Origin: a virus
Strand: one strand, 5' to 3'
IMG/VR virus record: IMGVR_UViG_3300006920_000219
Span: 1-25,570 of that record
DNA length: 25,570 nucleotides
Shown here: positions 904-8,804 of the stretch, in pieces
Position numbering within the stretch: position 1 is the first letter of the stretch
How the letters are laid out: every line of letters begins with the position of its first letter
Notes under the pieces: generated by a model
The model's input: only the letters and a program-made list of their open reading frames with translations
The model's database searches: none
Told to the model about the DNA's origin: nothing
Made by a program: the position numbers and the translations under genes

Positions 904-3462
904 TTAGGCAAAGCAGTAGCGTGAGTCCCGCACTTGCTGCAAATCCAAGCTGCCACGTTCCGGCAATGGCTTCATCTGAGCTTTAAGCTTGTCGGAGAGT
1001 TGGGCATATATCTCATCACGGAAGTCTGAGATGACATCAACTGACTCATACATCTCGACAAAGCTTTCCCGAACAACTTCATACATAGTCTGCATGTCAG
1101 CTGCCGGTGCGCCAAAGGAATCATGGATCATAGCGAAGCTGGTAATGCCCTTCTGGCTGGCACGTACAGTTGTCAACATCATATGACTAGCGTCTGCTGC
1201 GTGAACGAAGTTGGGTGAAATCCCATTGGCTTGCTTACGACGATCCAGTTCATCAGGGTTCTCGACATTCATCGTGAGCTTGATGACCTGACCAGCAATC
1301 GCGGTACGCACACGGTGTGGCTCGACATTCGCATAGGCTTGCATGATCGGGAAGCCACATGGTGAAGTCCACCGTACTGGTAGTTGATCCGATGCTGCCA
1401 GCGAGGCGGTCTCTTGCAGCCACTTCATTGCCTCAGAAGCTTTCACCAGTACTTGTGACACTGCATTCCAGATTAGCTTTGCCAAGTAACCAGCCGCACG
1501 GTATCCGTCACCGCTGAAGGGATAGAACTTACCATCCCTACGGGCTGGGTTAAGGATGTCTTCGAGGAGTTGTTCTTTGAAGCCATACTCTTTAGAGCCG
1601 TAGCACAAGGTCATCACGGAACGCTTGGTCACCTTGCGGTTGATGCCAAACTCCAACCACTGCTTTGCCAGTACCTTCGTACCTTCATAGATGTAGGAAG
1701 TACCAGCATCGGTGTGCCGCATCTCATCTGCCGTACCGGACACTAGATCAAGCTTGGCCTGTTCGCTAACCAACTCAGCTACCATGCGATAGACATCTGC
1801 TGGCTTCTCTGATGGAGTCAGGTTGACCTGTGCGCCACCCTTCTCACAGCGGAGCATTGCTGAGAAGTGCTGGATGCCTGAACAAGAGCCGTCTGCCGAG
1901 CAAGGGATTTTGCTAACGAAGTCTTCGCCGTACTGACAGAAGCCAGCCCACTCGAAACAGAAGGCCAGGAACTGCCACTGCTTATCTGTAGCGACACTGT
2001 CACCCTTGTCATCCATGCGATTGCCAAAGCCTGAGACCCAGCCACGATTGTTATATGGGTCAGCTGCGATGGCGAGTATCTCTTCTTCATTGTTAAGGAT
2101 GAAGTTCACACGGTCTTCGAAGCTGCACTTGTCCTCACCCATCAGGTTTGCACCCTGTACTGCCAACCACTTCCAACCTTCTGCACCAAGCTTCTTGCCG
2201 TTGGCGAATCTCAGGAGGGACTTGGTGGTGTCGTTGCCTTGGCAGTTCAATGAAGACACTGCGTAGATACGACCACGGAAGTCCAGCTGATATGGCATAT
2301 AGATTTTGCGATAGCGGCTGTAGCGATCTGCAATATCCAGAATCATGGAGAAGTGAATACGCTTAGAGCGGATCGACAGGTTGTGCCGGTGAACCTTAGC
2401 GGCAGAGACACGGTACTGCATACGGGCATCCTCGTTTGTCTCGATGTCTGCAGGAGGTACAGGCAGCGGCACACCATCCTTAGGTGGAAGTCCAGCCACG
2501 GTGCTGTTTGCGTACCAGAGGGTTCTCATGACCTCCATGACCTTGGTGTTGACCTGCCATGCGGTTCTCTGCAGGGAGTTAACAGCCGAGTAGACCAGCG
2601 GCATGTCTGTGTTCGCCAACTCCTCTTGATACGCTCTGTTGTTTGACTTAACCAGCTTCAGAGGCTTGATAGCCGTGCTGATATAGCCGCCATCAAGCGG
2701 GTTAGTCCAATCACGAGGGCGTACGACCATCGGCTCATACATTGGACGCAGCATAGCGATAGCGTCCTTACGCTGGGTGATCCAGTTCAGGACATCCTCA
2801 CGAACCTTAAGAACCTTGATGAGCTTCTTCTTGCCTTCGCTCTGTGTCACTACCTCGACGATGCCAATGGACTCGACACACAGGTCGATCATCTTAGAGC
2901 CAACATGGAGCCGCTCATCAGGAGTCCATGACTTCCAGCCGTCTTCCATACGATCAGCCATGCGGACAGCGTAGACATGCTTGTAGTGGTTCGAGGTACG
3001 CTGCTTTGCACCCAAGACAATACGCTCATAGTTCTTACGCTCTGCCTCTCGGATAGCAGACAGCCGCATCTCATCCTCGATGGCAGTCCCAATCGATACC
3101 GCAACATACTGCAGGGTGCGGACGGTGGACAAGCCAGAGATGATGTTCTTCAAGGCAAGGTAGGCAAGTTTGTCTGAGGAGGTGTCACGCACCCGCTTGA
3201 AACAAATCTGACGGTTACCTGCACGGCCTTCTGCAGCCTCTGTGCGCCACTTGGTTACCGCATCAGCGAACTGCTGCAGTCGGTGTGCCAGCAAGGTCTT
3301 GCCGTACACACTTCCCTCTTCACGCTCATGCTCAACTGAGGAGTTCACATGATGCATGAACCGCTCTGCTCCACGGGTGGTCATGGACTCTTCTAGAGAC
3401 AACTGAACAGACATCAGATCGATGTCATTAGCGGAGTCTTCAGGCAGCAAGTAGTTATTCAT
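904..3462 (-). CDS. Phage single-subunit DNA-directed RNA polymerase (T7 gp1 family)
   Basis: This 852-residue protein is close to the 883 residues of T7 RNA polymerase and transcribes phage middle and late genes. The catalytic motifs are intact. ADGSCSGIQHFSAM carries the first catalytic aspartate (D524). RKVTKRSVMTLCYGS holds the R609, K613 and Y621 equivalents of T7 R627, K631 and Y639. MIHDSFG carries the second catalytic aspartate (D781). The C-terminus ends YCFA, like the T7 'foot' (FAFA). In the specificity loop, aligned by flanking GFP and NFVH blocks, T7 R746 is kept (R717), but N748, R756 and Q758 correspond to R719, I727 and L729, so it should read a different promoter. The ATG at 3462 follows TTAGGACA, an acceptable ribosome binding site. 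The gene lies downstream of a terminator and the candidate attP, not directly behind the early genes. Confidence 0.97.
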   Translation of the reverse strand: MNNYLLPEDSANDIDLMSVQLSLEESMTTRGAERFMHHVNSSVEHEREEGSVYGKTLLAHRLQQFADAVTKWRTEAAEGRAGNRQICFKRVRDTSSDKLAYLALKNIISGLSTVRTLQYVAVSIGTAIEDEMRLSAIREAERKNYERIVLGAKQRTSNHYKHVYAVRMADRMEDGWKSWTPDERLHVGSKMIDLCVESIGIVEVVTQSEGKKKLIKVLKVREDVLNWITQRKDAIAMLRPMYEPMVVRPRDWTNPLDGGYISTAIKPLKLVKSNNRAYQEELANTDMPLVYSAVNSLQRTAWQVNTKVMEVMRTLWYANSTVAGLPPKDGVPLPVPPADIETNEDARMQYRVSAAKVHRHNLSIRSKRIHFSMILDIADRYSRYRKIYMPYQLDFRGRIYAVSSLNCQGNDTTKSLLRFANGKKLGAEGWKWLAVQGANLMGEDKCSFEDRVNFILNNEEEILAIAADPYNNRGWVSGFGNRMDDKGDSVATDKQWQFLAFCFEWAGFCQYGEDFVSKIPCSADGSCSGIQHFSAMLRCEKGGAQVNLTPSEKPADVYRMVAELVSEQAKLDLVSGTADEMRHTDAGTSYIYEGTKVLAKQWLEFGINRKVTKRSVMTLCYGSKEYGFKEQLLEDILNPARRDGKFYPFSGDGYRAAGYLAKLIWNAVSQVLVKASEAMKWLQETASLAASDQLPVRWTSPCGFPIMQAYANVEPHRVRTAIAGQVIKLTMNVENPDELDRRKQANGISPNFVHAADASHMMLTTVRASQKGITSFAMIHDSFGAPAADMQTMYEVVRESFVEMYESVDVISDFRDEIYAQLSDKLKAQMKPLPERGSLDLQQVRDSRYCFA

Positions 3463-3576
3463 TAGATTGTCCTAAGGTTCGTTTTAACGATTACTACCAC
3501 TACGATTACTTACTTAAGTAGCAAGTCTTGAGGAGCAGTAATCTTTATTGTCTAAGTACTAAGAGAAATCTTAAGT

Positions 3577-3704
3577 TGACACAAAGTGACACAGAGGTTT
3601 TTTAACAGATATAGCCAAAACCCACGCCAGTCGTAGAGGTATCTTCCACATCTGGTATCAAGTTGACGCAGTGTCACTTTTCAGCCATTTTCCGGAATTG
3701 ACAC
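3577..3704 (+). repeat. TGACRC repeat cluster, RNAP side (candidate integrase arm sites)
   Basis: TGACAC occurs at 3577-3582, 3587-3592 and 3699-3704, TGACGC at 3664-3669, and an inverted copy (GTGTCA) at 3671-3676. The first two are 10 bp apart, one helical turn. The same hexamer recurs on the other side of the tRNA. Short repeats flanking a tRNA core next to an integrase gene are typical of arm-type binding sites of tyrosine recombinases. The assignment is inferred from layout. Confidence 0.5.
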
Positions 3705-3731
3705 ATACCGAATTCGGCTTAGTAGCTTTAC

Positions 3732-3743
3732 TGGAACTTTCAA
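3732..3743 (-). promoter_or_regulatory. Candidate phage RNAP promoter motif, copy 2 (upstream of RNAP)
   Basis: The minus strand reads TTGAAAGTTCCA followed by GTAAAG. It lies about 20 bp downstream of the terminator and about 270 bp upstream of the RNA polymerase start codon. A phage promoter here would give the polymerase positive autoregulation. A weak host -35 (TTGAAA) cannot be excluded, but no good -10 follows. Confidence 0.4.
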
Positions 3744-3744
3744 A

Positions 3745-3753
3745 TATCTGGTA
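3745..3753. promoter_or_regulatory. TATCTGGTA motif, RNAP leader copy
   Basis: TATCTGGTA is followed by GTACTTCTGAGAAA. A close relative (TATCTGGTA then CTTCTGCGAAA) lies at 5669-5690 upstream of the MarR-like gene, and TATCTGGTA also lies at 7942-7950 upstream of the early promoter. A shared regulator-binding site is possible. Confidence 0.35.
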
Positions 3754-3764
3754 GTACTTCTGAG

Positions 3765-3789
3765 AAAAAAGCCCCGCTGAACTGGGGCT
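3765..3789 (-). terminator. Rho-independent terminator between tRNA-Leu and RNAP
   Basis: On the minus strand, AGCCCC pairs perfectly with GGGGCT around an 8-base loop and is followed by a run of T. It lies 20 bp after the CCA end of the tRNA. It would stop transcription from the early/integrase side, or from a host tRNA promoter after integration, before the RNA polymerase gene. Confidence 0.88.
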
Positions 3790-3809
3790 AAGTATTTGAA
3801 TTTATTGAA

Positions 3810-3894
3810 TGGTGCGGGTAGCGGGACTTGAACCCACACTCCTTACGGAAACAGATTTTAAGTCTGTCGTGTATACCAATTTCACCATACCCGC
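3810..3894 (-). tRNA. tRNA-Leu(UAA), complete, CCA encoded
   Basis: The minus strand folds as a complete 85-base class II tRNA. The acceptor stem GCGGGTA pairs with TACCCGC and is followed by A and an encoded CCA. The anticodon stem ACAGA/TCTGT closes the loop CTTAAAA, with anticodon TAA at 3860-3858. The variable arm (TTCCGTAAGGAG region) is long, as expected for leucine tRNAs, and the T arm GTGGGTTCAAGTCCC is canonical. The gene lies directly downstream of the integrase, in the same orientation, and is flanked by short repeats, so it is probably the core of attP as well as a possibly functional tRNA. Most attP cores hold only a 3' part of the host tRNA; this one is full length. Confidence 0.93.
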
Positions 3895-3968
3895 ATACTA
3901 CTTTTTCGGACTCATGGTATTTTAAGTCCTACCACATTCAATATAATCAAGTACTTACAAATATAATG

Positions 3969-4017
3969 TGACACAAAAGTGACGCTCCCACTGACGCAAT
4001 TGTCGCAAATGTGACAC
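3969..4017 (+). repeat. TGACRC repeat cluster, integrase side (candidate integrase arm sites)
   Basis: TGACAC occurs at 3969 and 4012, and TGACGC at 3980 and 3992. The spacings are 11, 12 and 20 bp, so the copies fall roughly on one face of the helix. They fill the gap between the tRNA 5' end and the integrase stop codon. Together with the cluster at 3577-3704 they bracket the tRNA, as integrase arm sites would. Confidence 0.5.
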
Positions 4018-4025
4018 TAAAGTTG

Positions 4026-5054
4026 TCAAGAAAATGCTTCTAAAGCTTCAGTACCGGACTCCAGACCCTTGCCAGCCAAGTTGATGTAACGCTGGGTCAC
4101 CATGATGTTCGAGTGTCCTAGCCAAGCTTGGATGAACGGAGCGGACTTACCTGCCATTGCCAAGCGAGTCCCACAGGTGTGACGCAGGGTGTGAACGATA
4201 AACTCATCGTCGTCGTCCATAGCCATGTCATGTCGCAGCATGTCCCACTGTAGGCGCAGCTTGGAGTCGGTCAGGTCAGCGAACAGCCGATCATTCCCTT
4301 TGCGTCTTTCGACCATCTCAAGCAGTCGCTTTGTCATCGGCACAATCCGCAGCTTGCTGGACTTGTTACCCCCAGCGACCCCTACAGCCAGCAGCCTTGC
4401 CTTGCCATCACGCACATCAGCGAGTCTGAAGTTCAGAATCTCCATTCTACGGAAACCTGTATCGATCCCGAACATGATGAAGTCTGCCAGCCCACCTAAC
4501 CCGCGCTGCTTGCATATCTCCAGCATCTGCTTCTCTTCCTCTACTTCAAAGAAGCGGGTGTTGTGTTCACTCTCACGCCTACGAGTCATCCTTGGCATCA
4601 GGTCAATCCAACCTTCATCCGCTGCTGTCTTAAGCATCACAGACAGGGCAGACAACTTACGGTTGACCGTACCACCACAGTTGCCGCTCTCAGCGAAGTG
4701 AACAGACATCTTACGGACTGCCTCCTGCTTGATAGCCCTCACTGGTGTTTTTTCACCAAGGAAGTTAAGCACATGCCTTGCATTGACCAACTGAGCGTTC
4801 TTAGAGTCAGCCCAGCGGGTTTGCTTGGTGATCTTGAAGACATACCCAAGAGTGACACCGCTTTCGTCTTCTGGAGCTACTGTGACGTTCTGGCGTTGTG
4901 GAGTGAACCGCTGAAGCTTCCGCTTTTCCCACTTCGCCTCTTCCATCGTGTTGATGCGTACAGCATCCTCTTCAGACTTCACTGTGGCTCGGAAGCGATC
5001 CGCACCACTGCCCACGTAAACTACCCATGAGCTTCCCCGTTTCATGTAAGGCAT
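4026..5054 (-). CDS. int: Phage integrase, tyrosine recombinase
   Basis: This 342-residue tyrosine recombinase has a complete active site: arginine R202 in DTGFRRMEI, a lysine at K231 or K234 in NKSSKLRI, H288 and R291 in HTLRH, H314 in LGHS, and the nucleophile Y323 in QRYINLA. The N-terminal part is the expected DNA-binding region (arm-binding then SAM-like core-binding domain). It would carry out site-specific integration, most likely into a host tRNA-Leu gene, given the tRNA 130 bp downstream. The ATG at 5054 is preceded by AAAGGAG five bases away, and the gene follows the MarR-like gene by only 14 bp, so the two are probably co-transcribed. Confidence 0.95.
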   Translation of the reverse strand: MPYMKRGSSWVVYVGSGADRFRATVKSEEDAVRINTMEEAKWEKRKLQRFTPQRQNVTVAPEDESGVTLGYVFKITKQTRWADSKNAQLVNARHVLNFLGEKTPVRAIKQEAVRKMSVHFAESGNCGGTVNRKLSALSVMLKTAADEGWIDLMPRMTRRRESEHNTRFFEVEEEKQMLEICKQRGLGGLADFIMFGIDTGFRRMEILNFRLADVRDGKARLLAVGVAGGNKSSKLRIVPMTKRLLEMVERRKGNDRLFADLTDSKLRLQWDMLRHDMAMDDDDEFIVHTLRHTCGTRLAMAGKSAPFIQAWLGHSNIMVTQRYINLAGKGLESGTEALEAFS

Positions 5055-5068
5055 AAAGGCTCCTTTGA

Positions 5069-5398
5069 TTAGATAATTTCTTCTAACAACTTCTCCCCTG
5101 CAGCAGTCAGGGAGACCAGCTTCTGTTTCCTATCCATTGGATTTTCATCCGCTTGGACAAGCCCCAGACCCTTCACGCCCATCGCTGGACGACCATCAGA
5201 TAACGCTTGCAAGTAGCGTGATGCGCTCGCATACGGCACGTTAGAAGACTCTGCAAGGCTTCTCATGGAGCGTTCTGGCTCTAAAGCAACTGCAAGCAAG
5301 AACAGAATTTGAGAGACCGGCATATTAGGATCTACATTCCTAAAAGTTTCTAAAAATTTAACTTTGTCTATGAGTTTAGTTGTAGACAGCTTTTTCAT
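5069..5398 (-). CDS. MarR-like winged-helix transcriptional regulator
   Basis: The 109-residue protein has a winged-helix layout: helices, then SMRSLAESSNVPYASASRYLQAL as helix-turn-helix (about residues 45-67), and a wing ending DRKQKLVSLTAAGEKLLEEI, a typical MarR-type C-terminal pattern. I choose the ATG at 5398 because AGAGGG lies just upstream; an upstream TTG at 5422 has no such site. The gene sits immediately before the integrase and behind a long AT-rich leader, which suggests it controls the lysogeny block. No CI-like repressor is visible in this window, so this is the best candidate for the lysogeny regulator, but that role is inferred. Confidence 0.8.
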   Translation of the reverse strand: MKKLSTTKLIDKVKFLETFRNVDPNMPVSQILFLLAVALEPERSMRSLAESSNVPYASASRYLQALSDGRPAMGVKGLGLVQADENPMDRKQKLVSLTAAGEKLLEEII

Positions 5399-5425
5399 TT
5401 CATTCCCTCTGTATCGGAGCAAAGA

Positions 5426-5587
5426 TCACATGCGCGGCCTCTGGACAGTACTCACATAGAGCGTGAACCACGCCCAATAAATGATGATTTCATATGGAAC
5501 CTGTTCAAAGCTTGGGAGCCATTGAAAGGAATTTCCTGATGATATAGCAAAATCTTTATTAATGATTTTTTTCAACAGTACCAACAT
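5426..5587 (-). CDS. Possible small protein upstream of the MarR-like gene
   Basis: A 53-residue frame starts at ATG 5587 (MLVLLKKIIN) and ends RPRM. It has a weak AAGGGA ribosome binding site nine bases upstream and a hydrophobic, aromatic stretch PYEIIIYWAWFTLYVSTV that could cross or lie on a membrane. It ends 27 bp before the regulator start. I do not recognise it. It may be a chance frame in an AT-rich leader. Confidence 0.35.
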   Translation of the reverse strand: MLVLLKKIINKDFAISSGNSFQWLPSFEQVPYEIIIYWAWFTLYVSTVQRPRM

Positions 5588-5757
5588 CGGTGATTCCCTT
5601 ATTTCGCAGTTAACTTATGGTTTTTATTAATTTTTTTTCCAGATAAACCTACATTATTTATAATTGAGTATCTGGTACTTCTGCGAAAGCACTCTCTTCA
5701 TTTCCCTAAATTAGGGAGGCTAATTATAGAGGAAGCCATAGATTCCTGACGGAAACA
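5588..5757. promoter_or_regulatory. AT-rich regulatory leader of the regulator/integrase block
   Basis: The stretch contains a TATCTGGTA motif (5669-5677), AT-rich segments with several -10-like hexamers on the minus strand, and a perfect 13-bp palindrome CCCTAAATTAGGG at 5704-5716 that looks like an operator. I could not choose one sigma70 promoter with confidence. Confidence 0.45.
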
Positions 5758-5865
5758 TTACAACAACCTTACGTTAGCAAAGGCGATAAGCTCAGACAGC
5801 TCCTGTACAGGCTTGCCAAGACTCTCAGCGATAGCGTCCAAGATCTGGGTGCAGGTGTTTTCCAT
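5758..5865 (-). CDS. Small early protein, 35 residues
   Basis: The frame MENTCTQILDAIAESLGKPVQELSELIAFANVRLL starts at ATG 5865 with CAGGAG six bases upstream, one of the better ribosome binding sites here. It follows the 123-residue early gene by about 30 bp. It is predicted helical and acidic, with no membrane segment. I do not know its function. Small host-directed proteins are common in early regions of T7-like phages, which is the only hint. Confidence 0.65.
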   Translation of the reverse strand: MENTCTQILDAIAESLGKPVQELSELIAFANVRLL

Positions 5866-5893
5866 TTGATTCTCCTGTGGTGTTCTAGGGGTG

Positions 5894-6265
5894 TTACTGA
5901 GCGAATGAAGCATTGATCTGGCGGTCATGCAGGTAGGCATAAGCTGCCTTAGACACTGGTGCGAAGTCATCTGACTTATTCACGAAGCTGTCGTACTTGT
6001 ACGGGTTGTAAGTGATGCAGTCAGTCGCCGCAGCCATTGCGCGATCTGCTTCAATGTCTTCTGTCCAGTAGCCAATGACACCGGCATGAACGTACTTCTT
6101 CTGCTCTCTGAGAACCCTTGCGCGTCCTGCCTGTGAGACCTTAAAGACAGCGTCCAGCAGATGGATAGAGTCAACGTGAGCGACCACGCGACCCTTGTTT
6201 TCACCCTCCATTGCCTTGACTGAAAACTTGCGCTTGTGCAGGTTGAAGTAAACGTAAACTTTCAT
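5894..6265 (-). CDS. Conserved early phage protein of unknown function
   Basis: This 123-residue protein starts MKVYVYFNLHKRKFSVKAMEG and contains a GRVVAHVDSI segment, a pattern I associate with conserved hypothetical proteins of tailed phages. It has no catalytic motif I can name and no membrane segment. The ATG at 6265 follows GAGGAGA, a strong ribosome binding site. It is part of the early block transcribed from 7.9 kb. Confidence 0.85.
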   Translation of the reverse strand: MKVYVYFNLHKRKFSVKAMEGENKGRVVAHVDSIHLLDAVFKVSQAGRARVLREQKKYVHAGVIGYWTEDIEADRAMAAATDCITYNPYKYDSFVNKSDDFAPVSKAAYAYLHDRQINASFAQ

Positions 6266-6285
6266 GGTTTATCTCCTCAGGTTGG

Positions 6286-6474
6286 TCAGTAGGTGAAGCC
6301 GGTCAGCAGCAACGTGCCGCGCTTGACCCATATTTCGTGGGAGGTGTCTTCTGTATCGGTCAGCGCGTATCGCTTCGAAGAGCGGTCGTACGTACTGCGG
6401 ATATAGGTTTTCTTAGCTGTCTCAGAGCGGCGAACGAATTCACCTTGCGGGATTGACTCAACTGGTTTTTTCAT
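6286..6474 (-). CDS. Conserved small early phage protein
   Basis: The 62-residue protein (MKKPVESIPQGEFVRRSETA...YIRSTYDRSSKRYALTDTEDTSHEIWVKRG...TGFTY) matches from memory a family of short phage proteins with an 'IPxGEF...YDRSxKxYxLxDxED' core and a terminal GFTY/DFTF. Function is unknown. The ATG at 6474 follows CAGGAGATACATC, a good ribosome binding site. Spacing to its neighbours is about 20 and 50 bp, fitting one early operon. Confidence 0.82.
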   Translation of the reverse strand: MKKPVESIPQGEFVRRSETAKKTYIRSTYDRSSKRYALTDTEDTSHEIWVKRGTLLLTGFTY

Positions 6475-6527
6475 GATGTATCTCCTGTCCGGTCTTAAAA
6501 TTGGTCTTCACGTTCGATCCACTCAGT

Positions 6528-6743
6528 TCAGTAGTTCGTATCCCCGACCCACCCCCTGTTGCAGACGCTGGGGTAGAAGGACTGCTGCCAGCGCGACTCA
6601 TCCATGCTCTTAACTAGGACACGCCCAGTGCTGCCGCTATGCCGTGGTTCTTCCATGCCTACTACGACGACAGCCTCACCTTGGAAGGTGTGTGCTATGT
6701 CACCTACGTTGACGGCATTGCCTTGCTTGTTGACTAGTTTCAT
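6528..6743 (-). CDS. Conserved small early phage protein
   Basis: The 71-residue protein begins MKLVNKQGNAVNVGDIAHTFQGEAVVVVGMEEPRHSGSTGRV and ends in an aromatic FYPSVCNRGWVG segment. The EPRHSGSTGRVxV block resembles a short family of phage proteins of unknown function. It probably forms a small beta barrel. The ATG at 6743 follows GAAAGGAACACATC. Confidence 0.8.
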   Translation of the reverse strand: MKLVNKQGNAVNVGDIAHTFQGEAVVVVGMEEPRHSGSTGRVLVKSMDESRWQQSFYPSVCNRGWVGDTNY

Positions 6744-6787
6744 GATGTGTTCCTTTCAGGGTTGTACTGCTCCGGATAATTCCGACA

Positions 6788-6811
6788 CTGCAGACTATTG
6801 ATAATCTGCAG
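6788..6811 (-). other. Inverted repeat between early genes
   Basis: CTGCAGA and TCTGCAG form a perfect 7-bp stem around a 10-base loop in the gap between two early genes. No T tract follows, so it is not an ordinary terminator. In T7 the early transcript is cut by RNase III at hairpins between genes; this could be similar, but it is shorter than those sites. Confidence 0.35.
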
Positions 6812-6831
6812 TAGCTGAAAATCTGGGACTA

Positions 6832-7566
6832 TTAGGCCGCAGCTTGAGCTATGAATCTGTTCTTCAGCGAACCATGCACGACGATCACAGGATCAGCTTT
6901 GCGGGTATTGACGCCACCATCACAGGCTTGGCACTCAGCGCAGGTCTTGCGCTTACCTGCCTCAGCACTTGCTGGACAAACAAACTCGCCAGCTTGTAGC
7001 GGCTGTGCTTCAGTGCGAATTCTGAAAGTCCTATAGCCAGCAGCTTTTGCTTCAGTGCGGTCTGTCTCATTATCAGCAGATGCCATGCACCACTGCATAA
7101 CCGCTAGGGACTTCCCAGACTTCCACTGATGGGTGTAGCCCATGTGACCAGCAGACTGAGCCAGCAGAGCCGCCCAGACAGCAGCAGGGACAGCAGCAGG
7201 ATCACCATAAGTACCTAAGCGAACCACGCGACCCGCAGCAGCTTCGTTAGCCGCTCCAGCGTCCTGCGGATAGATGCCTCGCTCGATACCAGCAGCCACA
7301 GATCGCGCACCCTGCCCCAGATTGACATAGCATGAGCCACCTAAGCCGCGACGATGAGGACAAGAGCCACAGATAGCCGCATCGTCCAGATTCCTAGCGT
7401 TATCCACTGGGGACTTACCGTTATCTCTGAGGATGTACGTTTGAACTACATCACCGGTTTTGCTGTTCGTGCTTTTCTTAGTGATAGCCACTACGACGAT
7501 ATTTTCACCGTTCAAGAGTGATTCACCACGATAAATAATGAAGCCTGTAGGTTGTTTCGTTTTCAT
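6832..7566 (-). CDS. Cysteine-rich conserved early phage protein
   Basis: The 244-residue protein has two cysteine clusters: C66, C69 and C79 in ICGSCPHRR...GGSCYVN, and C197, C209, C212 and C215 in VCPASAEAGKRKTCAECQAC. Other recognisable blocks are RLGTYGDPAAVP, GYTHQW and ASADNETDR. I know this layout from conserved hypothetical proteins of many phages. The spacing suggests metal (zinc or iron-sulphur) binding, but no enzyme activity can be assigned. The ATG at 7566 follows AAAAAGGA. It is the largest gene of the first early block. Confidence 0.85.
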   Translation of the reverse strand: MKTKQPTGFIIYRGESLLNGENIVVVAITKKSTNSKTGDVVQTYILRDNGKSPVDNARNLDDAAICGSCPHRRGLGGSCYVNLGQGARSVAAGIERGIYPQDAGAANEAAAGRVVRLGTYGDPAAVPAAVWAALLAQSAGHMGYTHQWKSGKSLAVMQWCMASADNETDRTEAKAAGYRTFRIRTEAQPLQAGEFVCPASAEAGKRKTCAECQACDGGVNTRKADPVIVVHGSLKNRFIAQAAA

Positions 7567-7605
7567 GTCAATTCCTTTTTAGTGATAGTACCGAATTTGG
7601 TAGGA

Positions 7606-7713
7606 TTAGATGCAAAGATCAGCCACTACAGCAAACACTAGAGCCACCATAGAGGTCAGCACAGTGATAGTGAACAGGATGTCAGCAGCTTCGATTCTCT
7701 TTTGCTTGTACAT
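7606..7713 (-). CDS. Small single-pass membrane protein, 35 residues
   Basis: Reading from ATG 7713 gives MYKQKRIEAADILFTITVLTSMVALVFAVVADLCI. Residues about 11-32 form one hydrophobic helix after a basic N-terminus, so the C-terminus is probably periplasmic. AAGGA lies eight bases upstream of the ATG. Function is unknown; an early membrane-acting or exclusion-type peptide is conceivable. Confidence 0.7.
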   Translation of the reverse strand: MYKQKRIEAADILFTITVLTSMVALVFAVVADLCI

Positions 7714-7724
7714 TGCGATTTTCC

Positions 7725-7850
7725 TTAGTTGAACTTGAACTTCATGCACTCAGCATAACTACCGGTGAACACTATCTTGTAGCTGTTGCGCTGCTCATCG
7801 CCCTTACAGACTATTACGTTACCGTGAGCGTTCTTCTGTGCTGTATACAT
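7725..7850 (-). CDS. First early gene, 41-residue protein
   Basis: The frame from ATG 7850 encodes MYTAQKNAHGNVIVCKGDEQ... and ends MKFKFN. AGGAG lies eight bases before the start. It is the first gene after the early promoter, with a leader of about 25-30 bases. I do not recognise the protein. First early genes of T7-like phages often counter host defence or host enzymes, which is only a contextual hint. Confidence 0.72.
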   Translation of the reverse strand: MYTAQKNAHGNVIVCKGDEQRNSYKIVFTGSYAECMKFKFN

Positions 7851-7884
7851 CGTTTTTTCTCCTGTTTGTTTGTGGCAGGACTCA

Positions 7885-7913
7885 AATATAAATCCTCCGT
7901 TATCTCATGTCAA
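7885..7913 (-). promoter_or_regulatory. Strong sigma70-type early promoter
   Basis: On the minus strand, a perfect -35 TTGACA (7913-7908) and -10 TATATT (7890-7885) are separated by exactly 17 bp. The start would be near 7878, about 30 bases before the first early gene. It corresponds in place to the T7 A promoters read by host RNA polymerase. Two direct repeats AAATAGTTGT, 20 bp apart, touch the -35 box and may bind a regulator. Confidence 0.85.
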
Positions 7914-7942
7914 CAACTATTTCACATTCGGTACAACTATTT
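7913..7942 (-). repeat. Two 10-bp direct repeats at the early promoter
   Basis: AAATAGTTGT occurs at 7922-7913 and 7942-7933 on the minus strand, with a 20-bp period (about two helical turns). The inner copy overlaps the first base of the -35 box. This placement fits an operator or activator site. Confidence 0.6.
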
Positions 7943-7985
7943 ATCTGGTAGTGAAAAAAAGGAACTGATCGGGCTGTTTGTCTTT

Positions 7986-8031
7986 AGATGGACTGTAGAT
8001 AGTTCTAGAGATGGACTGTAGATAGTTCTAG
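7986..8031. repeat. Tandem 23-bp direct repeat (two copies)
   Basis: Two perfect head-to-tail copies, 7986-8008 and 8009-8031, each begin AGATGGACTG and end GTTCTAG. They are bracketed by two copies of AAAAAAGGAACTGAT (7955-7969 and 8036-8050). The block lies in the non-coding junction region upstream of the early promoter. Confidence 0.9.
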
Positions 8032-8130
8032 CGTTAAAAAAGGAACTGATAGTCAAAAATAGAGAGCCATCACAGTGCGCCCTAAGACTATCAATAGAAG
8101 TCAATAGTCAATCCGATGACAGAACAGAGG

Positions 8131-8136
8131 ATTATA
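8131..8136 (-). promoter_or_regulatory. Possible second early promoter (-10 box)
   Basis: A perfect TATAAT (8136-8131) on the minus strand has a weak -35 TTTAAA 16 bp upstream. T7-like phages often have several host promoters in tandem here. The weak -35 makes this uncertain. Confidence 0.35.
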
Positions 8137-8535
8137 TATCTTATGCTTTCCCTTTAAAATCAAGGACTTACAATCGTTATCTTTTAGATACTTTGCCGCA
8201 GAAAACCGAGGCTGGACGGTGGGGGACGGGGGGTACTCGCCGCGTTCGTGATCGAGGTGAGTCTTTCAGATTTTTCTAGCGAATTATTTTAAGGGTGACC
8301 CTAAGTCAGACCCGAAGAAATCCATAGATGAGGCATTGCACCTCTGTAGTTGGACATCAGGTCTGACGGTCAATGAATGTATCTGGTGTTTGAAGAAGCA
8401 TCGTAAGAAGTTATGCACACTACTCCCTAAAGAAAAATGAATAAGTAAGGAGTTCTTCCCGGGGGCGACTGTGCTTAACTCAGTGACGGTATGTTGTACA
8501 GACACTAACTAGGTTGGTCATGGTGGTAGTTGTCC

Positions 8536-8584
8536 CTTAAGACATCTCTTGAGTATCTTAAGACATCTTAGGATGTACTTAGAA
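8536..8584. repeat. Phased short repeats next to presumed genome end
   Basis: CTTAAGACATCT is present twice (8536-8547 and 8557-8568), and CTTRRGA-like heptamers start at 8536, 8548, 8557, 8567 and 8578, about one per helical turn. They resemble the short repeat arrays (SRL/SRR) beside the T7 and T3 terminal repeats. Confidence 0.6.
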
Positions 8585-8719
8585 CATATACCATGACTGC
8601 AGGAATCTCTAGTTTCCCCCCTTACCCCCCATAAGGTTTCCCTTAGTGGCAGTAGGCAGTTAACCAGAGGCTTCCTGAGTCATGGCGAACACACACCATA
8701 GACACACGAGGCTCTGAGT

Positions 8720-8735
8720 CCAGTACGAATACTGG
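8720..8735 (-). other. Stem-loop after terL
   Basis: CCAGTA and TACTGG pair around a TTCG loop on the minus strand. No T tract follows, so it could be an RNA-stability or weak termination element for late transcripts. Confidence 0.4.
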
Positions 8736-8792
8736 TACACAGCCAAGTGCGCTATGTAATCCCCAGAAGAAAGTATGGCTCTCTTCTTATAC

Positions 8793-8804
8793 TGGAACTT
8801 TCAA
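8793..8804 (-). promoter_or_regulatory. Candidate phage RNAP promoter motif, copy 3 (at terL stop)
   Basis: The minus strand reads TTGAAAGTTCCA followed by GTATAAG. The TGA stop of terL is inside the motif. This is where T7 has phiOR, the promoter near the right end that is linked to packaging and replication. Confidence 0.45.

Follow-up and report, generated by a model that had tools for sequence, protein, structure and literature searches.

How does a temperate phage that carries its own T7-type RNA polymerase keep that gene quiet in the lysogen? The question is raised by a single virus record of 25,570 bases (IMGVR_UViG_3300006920_000219, positions 1 to 25,570; hereafter the window), in which a leucine tRNA gene lies between a tyrosine integrase and a T7-type RNA polymerase. 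Read along the minus strand, the order is terminase, a gap, an early promoter, early genes, a MarR-like gene, the tyrosine integrase, tRNA-Leu(UAA), a hairpin terminator and the polymerase; all parts named in an earlier note on this DNA, from early promoter to polymerase, are there in the order it gave. That note placed a candidate phage attachment site (attP) between integrase and polymerase and proposed that integration itself disconnects the polymerase from its early promoter. Judged from its genes, the region is probably where a temperate T7-like phage, of the Autographiviridae type, has its attP and its lysogeny genes. Like other members of this group, which are Autographiviridae with an integrase, it has a single-subunit T7-type polymerase within a T7-like gene order, and the tyrosine integrase and MarR-like gene stand directly upstream of the polymerase, an order common to many relatives.

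The comparison described below suggests an answer that, taken as a whole, we consider probable: a crossover in a short core, replacement of the host tRNA, and a polymerase that is cut off and shielded in the lysogen. The integrase would recombine a core at 3919-3928 with a tRNA-Leu(UAA) gene of the host at its anticodon loop, halving that gene and opening the circular phage genome at a point that parts integrase and polymerase. One prophage end would then carry the MarR-like gene, the integrase and the early promoter, and the opposite end the polymerase. Next to the polymerase, transcription from the host tRNA promoter would run through the 5′ half of the host tRNA into the phage's complete tRNA-Leu, which would replace the broken host gene under the captured host promoter. 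Most of this transcription would end at the phage terminator behind the tRNA, short of the polymerase. The polymerase of a lysogen would have lost its link to the early promoter and be protected from the one of the host. During infection, early transcription would read through the terminator and start the polymerase, which would go on to amplify its own expression from the phage promoter in front of it, provided that the MarR-like regulator leaves this promoter free. In relatives we observe the core position, the split host tRNA, the complete phage tRNA, polymerase and integrase at opposite ends, and the terminator on the polymerase side; from these we infer that the window phage uses the same elements, that its tRNA serves as a replacement, and what the transcriptional effects would be.

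As a single query against viral contigs, the integrase returned only one distant relative, so relatives were sought with a polymerase alignment; the polymerase profile scan yielded 80 related viral contigs along with 11 bacterial loci. Recurrently in this set, the polymerase is preceded by a MarR-like gene, then an integrase and then either a tRNA-Leu or no full tRNA. On this comparison, the placement of the tRNA between integrase and polymerase is not chance, because about 20 related viral contigs share a tRNA-Leu in that spacer, which is typically about 500 bp long. Where a full tRNA is lacking, many relatives hold only a piece of tRNA-Leu that begins at the anticodon loop or, in L057 and L093, ends there.

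Where does the crossover fall? The window's complete tRNA-Leu(UAA) occupies 3810-3894 on the minus strand (ARAGORN and Rfam, 62 bits), and the earlier note considered it as the possible crossover site, overlooking a second copy of the anticodon loop. This copy, the 10-nt GACTTAAAAT at 3919-3928 (minus strand), sits outside the tRNA, in intergenic DNA between integrase and tRNA, and is our predicted attP core. A crossover inside the tRNA was also our first assumption; it was dropped after a test for second cores in the relatives. Of 14 non-redundant relatives with a full tRNA, 10 repeat the 7-mer of the anticodon loop exactly in the stretch from integrase to tRNA, at 13-54 nt from the latter (mean of 0.4 and maximum of 3 in 1000 shuffles). 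Three more hold the 7-mer between tRNA and polymerase, giving 13/14 on either side, and the loop of the swapped isoacceptor occurs in 0/14. These second copies bear on the alternative that recombination takes place inside the complete tRNA, leaving a complete hybrid tRNA at both junctions and no need for a replacement. The window's tRNA does contain the same 10-nt loop, so a crossover there is possible, a point against our placement, and relatives with only the 3′ half (HAI-2 and others) rebuild the host tRNA at the polymerase end. However, the full-tRNA relatives hold a second loop copy outside the tRNA, an IHF-type site lies near the short core, and three metagenomic junctions and two chromosomes join the host half at the short core rather than at the loop of the phage tRNA. 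We consider a crossover inside the tRNA unlikely, and most likely it falls in the short anticodon-loop core 5′ of the tRNA.

The two chromosomes are those of Xanthobacter YC-JY1 and Rhodopseudomonas palustris XCP. In both, the prophage interrupts the host tRNA-Leu(UAA) at the anticodon loop: the 5′ half precedes the polymerase, the 3′ half follows the integrase, and between integrase and core there is a complete tRNA-Leu(UAA) whose sequence differs. An assignment of R. palustris to a class with a 5′ half was dropped when the host 3′ half and the different complete tRNA were found at its integrase end. In the metagenomic contigs L042, L079 and L083, a host tRNA-Leu 5′ half ending in GATTTAAAA is followed by 24-26 nt, a complete phage tRNA-Leu and the polymerase. 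Their upstream flank is common to Polynucleobacter genomes, and uninfected ones have an intact tRNA-Leu(UAA) at this place; the integrase end of these contigs was not returned by the scans. In Polynucleobacter MG-27-Goln-C1, the host contig C4 stops exactly at that point and a 40.3-kb phage contig, C5, ends in the core. The window's GACTTAAAAT agrees with the junctions of L042, L079, L083, Xanthobacter and R. palustris. Among these relatives, a split host tRNA is seen around the prophages of Xanthobacter and R. palustris and at the one junction covered in L042, L079 and L083. The window's order of integrase, core, tRNA, terminator and polymerase is the one that would give an L042-type junction, so that integration would bring its tRNA immediately downstream of the captured host tRNA promoter.

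Close to the core, on the plus strand at 3945-3957, lies a perfect match to the consensus of integration host factor (IHF), WATCAANNNNTTR. In the relatives, an IHF-type site lies near the core in one orientation, mostly 30-42 nt away; the match is exact in 9/30 (0.1 in shuffles) and has at most one mismatch in 19/30 (2.4 in shuffles). The repeats that the earlier note saw flanking the tRNA are present as a 23-nt inverted repeat of 87% identity with arms at 3789-3811 and 3935-3957; the second arm contains the perfect IHF consensus, and the first an IHF-like sequence with one mismatch, as judged by eye. Seven GTGACAC-type sites lie between 3576 and 4017 on both sides of the tRNA and core, at 3967-4018 on the integrase side (GTGACAC and GTGACGC) and at 3576-3704 on the polymerase side (TTGACAC and GTGACAC). 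These repeats are possible arm-type sites of the integrase.

Why should the phage carry a complete tRNA? By analogy with tRNA-dependent lysogeny and with Rhizobium relatives, the tRNA is most likely a replacement for the broken host gene. In the tRNA-dependent lysogeny of actinobacteriophages, mutation showed that the tRNA is needed for lysogeny (PMC10865867). As in our proposal, the core there is about 10 bp, the host tRNA is not rebuilt and the phage tRNA is of the same isotype, although those phages infect Actinobacteria. The window combines a predicted core of about 10 bp with a tyrosine integrase, and its tRNA-Leu(UAA) with a UAA-type core, the core being what indicates the target isotype. 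In Rhizobium, the prophages of the temperate Autographiviridae vTRX32-1 and RHEph01 end in a 12-bp core within tRNA-Leu, and a replacement tRNA-Leu has been proposed (PMC8631192). Like the window, the Rhizobium phages have an integrase, a short core from the tRNA-Leu anticodon loop (CAGATTTAGGTT), a T7-type polymerase and a carried tRNA-Leu that would serve as a replacement. The replacement tRNA of RHEph01 lies upstream of the integrase and is reversed, whereas that of the window lies between core and polymerase in the same direction. Unlike that of RHEph01, the window's tRNA would use the captured host promoter and then the phage terminator.

Another view was taken for Pseudomonas phage LUZ100, whose authors obtained no stable lysogens and regarded the tRNA as an excision leftover (PMC10134795). 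LUZ100 shares with the window a MarR-like gene and integrase in one operon, a terminator between integrase and polymerase, a phage promoter before the polymerase, and a tRNA-Leu(UAA); its tRNA is upstream of the integrase and reversed. Applied to the window, that view would make the tRNA either a remnant of imprecise excision or an aid to translation, a role that phage tRNAs can generally serve, and unrelated to the present attachment site. Yet the isoacceptor of the tRNA matches the short core in 13 of 14 relatives and the swapped isoacceptor in 0, and the match holds even where the tRNA lies elsewhere, in LUZ100, L094, L096, RHEph01 and Lo5R7ANS; we think the reading as leftover or translation aid very improbable. 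In LUZ100 itself (L160), the reversed tRNA-Leu is at 2658-2743, and an anticodon-loop core of the same isoacceptor lies downstream of the integrase at about 3916-3925. Because of this core, the LUZ100 tRNA may also be a replacement tRNA, with attP at about 3916-3925. L094 and L096 have the same arrangement, with a reversed tRNA-Leu upstream of the integrase and a same-isoacceptor core downstream. The comparison offers a testable reason why many T7-like phages carry a single tRNA-Leu, namely that it replaces the host gene broken by integration.

What does integration do to the polymerase? The earlier note predicted that prophages with such an integrase would have polymerase and integrase at opposite ends next to tRNA-Leu, and this is the layout we found in relatives. 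In Pseudomonas putida HAI-2, R. palustris XCP and Xanthobacter YC-JY1, the two genes are 38-41 kb apart at opposite ends of an insertion in tRNA-Leu; in XCP and YC-JY1, the latter a complete chromosome, both are on one strand. A Mucispirillum genome has the same order at a distance of about 35 kb, with junctions unresolved. HAI-2 has its polymerase at 600,458-602,971 and its integrase at 639,010-640,014, on the same strand. A 55-bp direct repeat at both ends consists of tRNA-Leu(UAG) from the anticodon loop to the CCA, and three other Pseudomonas genomes have an uninterrupted, empty site that matches the joined flanks at 89-90% identity. At the polymerase end, a strong terminator (-23.7 kcal/mol) stands between the host tRNA cluster Arg-His-Leu(UAG) and the polymerase; at the other, the integrase is followed by the 55-bp repeat and host DNA. 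The terminator lies on the phage side of the junction and so came with the phage, in keeping with the shielding role proposed for a terminator behind the tRNA. Toward the far end, the order is terminase, MarR-like gene, integrase, and the sole gene-strand sigma-70 match of at least 10/12 is at 637,474, between terminase and MarR-like gene and about 37 kb from the polymerase start. In this relative, the only such promoter match is at the integrase end, as expected if integration parts the polymerase from its early promoter.

We made three further observations at this Pseudomonas site. The HAI-2 prophage splits tRNA-His off its tRNA cluster, leaving it downstream of the phage integrase (L100 2897-2972). 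In another genome (L132, G439), the same tRNA cluster adjoins a fragment of a polymerase that shares 95% identity with the HAI-2 polymerase, and a second half-site lies about 6 kb off; this is probably a degraded prophage of the HAI-2 kind. A 39.7-kb element in the same tRNA-Leu site (G417; L163/L164) was set aside, as it has a different integrase and no T7-type polymerase was detected in it.

In the window, the early host-type promoter TTGACA-17-TATATT (7913-7885, minus strand) is the sole 11/12 sigma-70 match on either strand of the 25.6 kb. A strong host-type promoter in front of the polymerase would have spoken against uncoupling by integration; from tRNA to polymerase on the coding strand, there is no sigma-70 match of 9/12 or better. 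The hairpin terminator (3764-3789, minus strand; hairpin 3789-3770 plus a U-run) lies 21 nt behind the tRNA and folds at -11.8 kcal/mol (z=-2.5). Terminator-like hairpins also occur in 37/52 spacers of relatives as against 7-12 in shuffles, a count in which not all spacers are independent. Between the window's terminator and its polymerase gene lies TTGAAAGTTCCAGTA (3743-3729, minus strand), a candidate phage-polymerase promoter that the earlier note did not notice. It has an exact second copy at 8804-8790 and a third with 3 mismatches at 883-869, all on the minus strand, and the scan that found it also recovers the mapped promoter motif of LUZ100 and a 5-copy motif in Limnohabitans phage YIMV22061. 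Adjoining it at 3745-3753 is TATCTGGTA, a candidate regulator site that recurs without mismatch ahead of the MarR-like gene (5669-5677) and ahead of the early promoter (7942-7950), so that all three lie in regulatory gaps. With at most one mismatch there are 12 matches against 4.3 expected, a number reached in 0/100 shuffles. These sites are possible operators of the MarR-like protein. The copy at 5669 pairs, inverted and spaced, with TATCTGGAA at 5637-5645.

These elements lend weight to a rival account, in which the separation of the two genes is a by-product of where integrase and attP lie, a MarR-like repressor acting on phage and early promoters silences the polymerase, and the terminator merely ends tRNA and integrase transcripts. 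LUZ100 has a terminator (T4) between integrase and polymerase and a promoter (phi1) before the polymerase, and a MarR model was proposed for it (PMC10134795); the window has the same parts, with a candidate phage promoter and TATCTGGTA at three upstream regions. Repression at the phage promoter, as proposed for LUZ100, would suffice, and in the reversed YIMV22061 a terminator-like hairpin tracks the 3′ side of the tRNA and not the polymerase. On the other hand, the integrase-core-polymerase layout is kept across a large sequence distance and several tRNA arrangements, and repressor binding is putative. We give this account an even chance. It is compatible with uncoupling, since both can act, and most likely both do, with uncoupling lowering the leak of polymerase and repression blocking its self-amplification. 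Prophage life with a T7-type polymerase requires that this one gene be silent, and the layout found would help.

A stronger version, in which integration is the off switch of the polymerase, removing its link to the host-type promoter and placing it behind captured promoter, tRNA and terminator until excision, seems to us doubtful. In the free phage, the terminator already separates early promoter and polymerase, and the candidate promoter TTGAAAGTTCCAGTA stands after that terminator and before the polymerase; both facts weigh against a purely topological switch, and several others weigh against the wider proposal. Terminators were not detected in the spacer of every relative, and the spacers of BB8, L003, L036, L043 and L066 contain neither tRNA nor core. 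With core and tRNA inverted in YIMV22061, transcription from the host promoter would not run into the polymerase, and the hairpin of this phage, terminator-like on both strands, lies between integrase and tRNA, that is, behind the tRNA 3′ end. Xanthobacter, R. palustris and L002 have their tRNA between integrase and core, and promoter capture is thus not universal. In MG-27-Goln-C1, the host 3′ half was not found with a pattern taken from related genomes. An identical tRNA-Leu was sought in 399 genomes of the order of Polynucleobacter, and none was found (best 82% identity), leaving the window's host and bacterial attachment site (attB) unassigned.

In the integration-dependent immunity of mycobacteriophages, attP is part of the repressor gene, so that the repressor is restructured when the phage integrates. 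The earlier note drew a parallel to this system, and it holds insofar as recombination in the window phage would alter expression by relinking genes. It does not extend to the repressor: the core at 3919-3928 is intergenic and the MarR-like gene at 5069-5422 stays whole, and what changes is the linkage of the polymerase gene to promoters.

Much of the scheme is already known. Integration of T7-like phages in tRNA-Leu with attP downstream of the integrase has been described (PMC8776855, PMC8631192), as have an integrase upstream of the polymerase with a carried tRNA-Leu in LUZ100 (PMC10134795) and a short core with a replacement tRNA in the Rhizobium relatives (PMC8631192). For the T7-like cyanophages P-SSP7 and S-TIP37, integration into host tRNA-Leu was shown experimentally, and no stable lysogeny was found (PMC8776855); their attP is downstream of the integrase, as in the window, but is a 39-bp sequence matching the first half of the tRNA. 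In the literature compared, which excludes Boeckman 2022 and Zhao 2019 on temperate T7-like phages, we found no account of a replacement tRNA that lies between core and polymerase and is transcribed from a captured host promoter, or of a polymerase uncoupled as a result of integration. The relatives from other proteobacteria join the phages known to integrate in the tRNA-Leu anticodon loop.

The polymerase (904-3462, minus strand, 852 aa; PF00940, E=1e-108; phrog_414, E=9e-271) has its nearest relatives in Bordetella phage BB8 (56% identity) and Limnohabitans phage YIMV22061 (50%), both Autographiviridae. The tyrosine integrase of 342 aa is encoded at 4026-5054 on the minus strand (Pfam PF00589, E=3e-18; phrog_1, E=1e-37). 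The MarR-like regulator (5069-5422, minus strand; phrog_9665, E=5e-18) is 37% identical to gp10, the MarR-like protein of LUZ100. Megablast of the window against phage records gave no match. The terminase, identified by homology at 10513-8801 on the minus strand, passes straight into the early region across 7913-8801. In T7, the terminase and the early region are at opposite ends of the linear genome, and the window's contig must therefore span joined ends (a terminal repeat, a concatemer or a circle). A second perfect IHF-consensus site lies in this terminase-early gap at 8158-8170, beginning where the second-best gene-strand sigma-70 match (8158-8131) begins.

The integrase-polymerase spacer seems to be a place where cargo is acquired. 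In phage Lo5R7ANS (L243 3734-6829), it holds genes annotated as a restriction endonuclease, a DNA methyltransferase and two tRNA splicing ligases, and longer spacers are also found in L023 and L244. In L056 (3235-5414), one contig carries an integrase, a tRNA-Leu anticodon-loop piece, tRNA-His, a complete tRNA-Leu(UAG) and the polymerase, a layout that looks like recombination (or misassembly) between the two tRNA-His copies flanking a HAI-2-type prophage.

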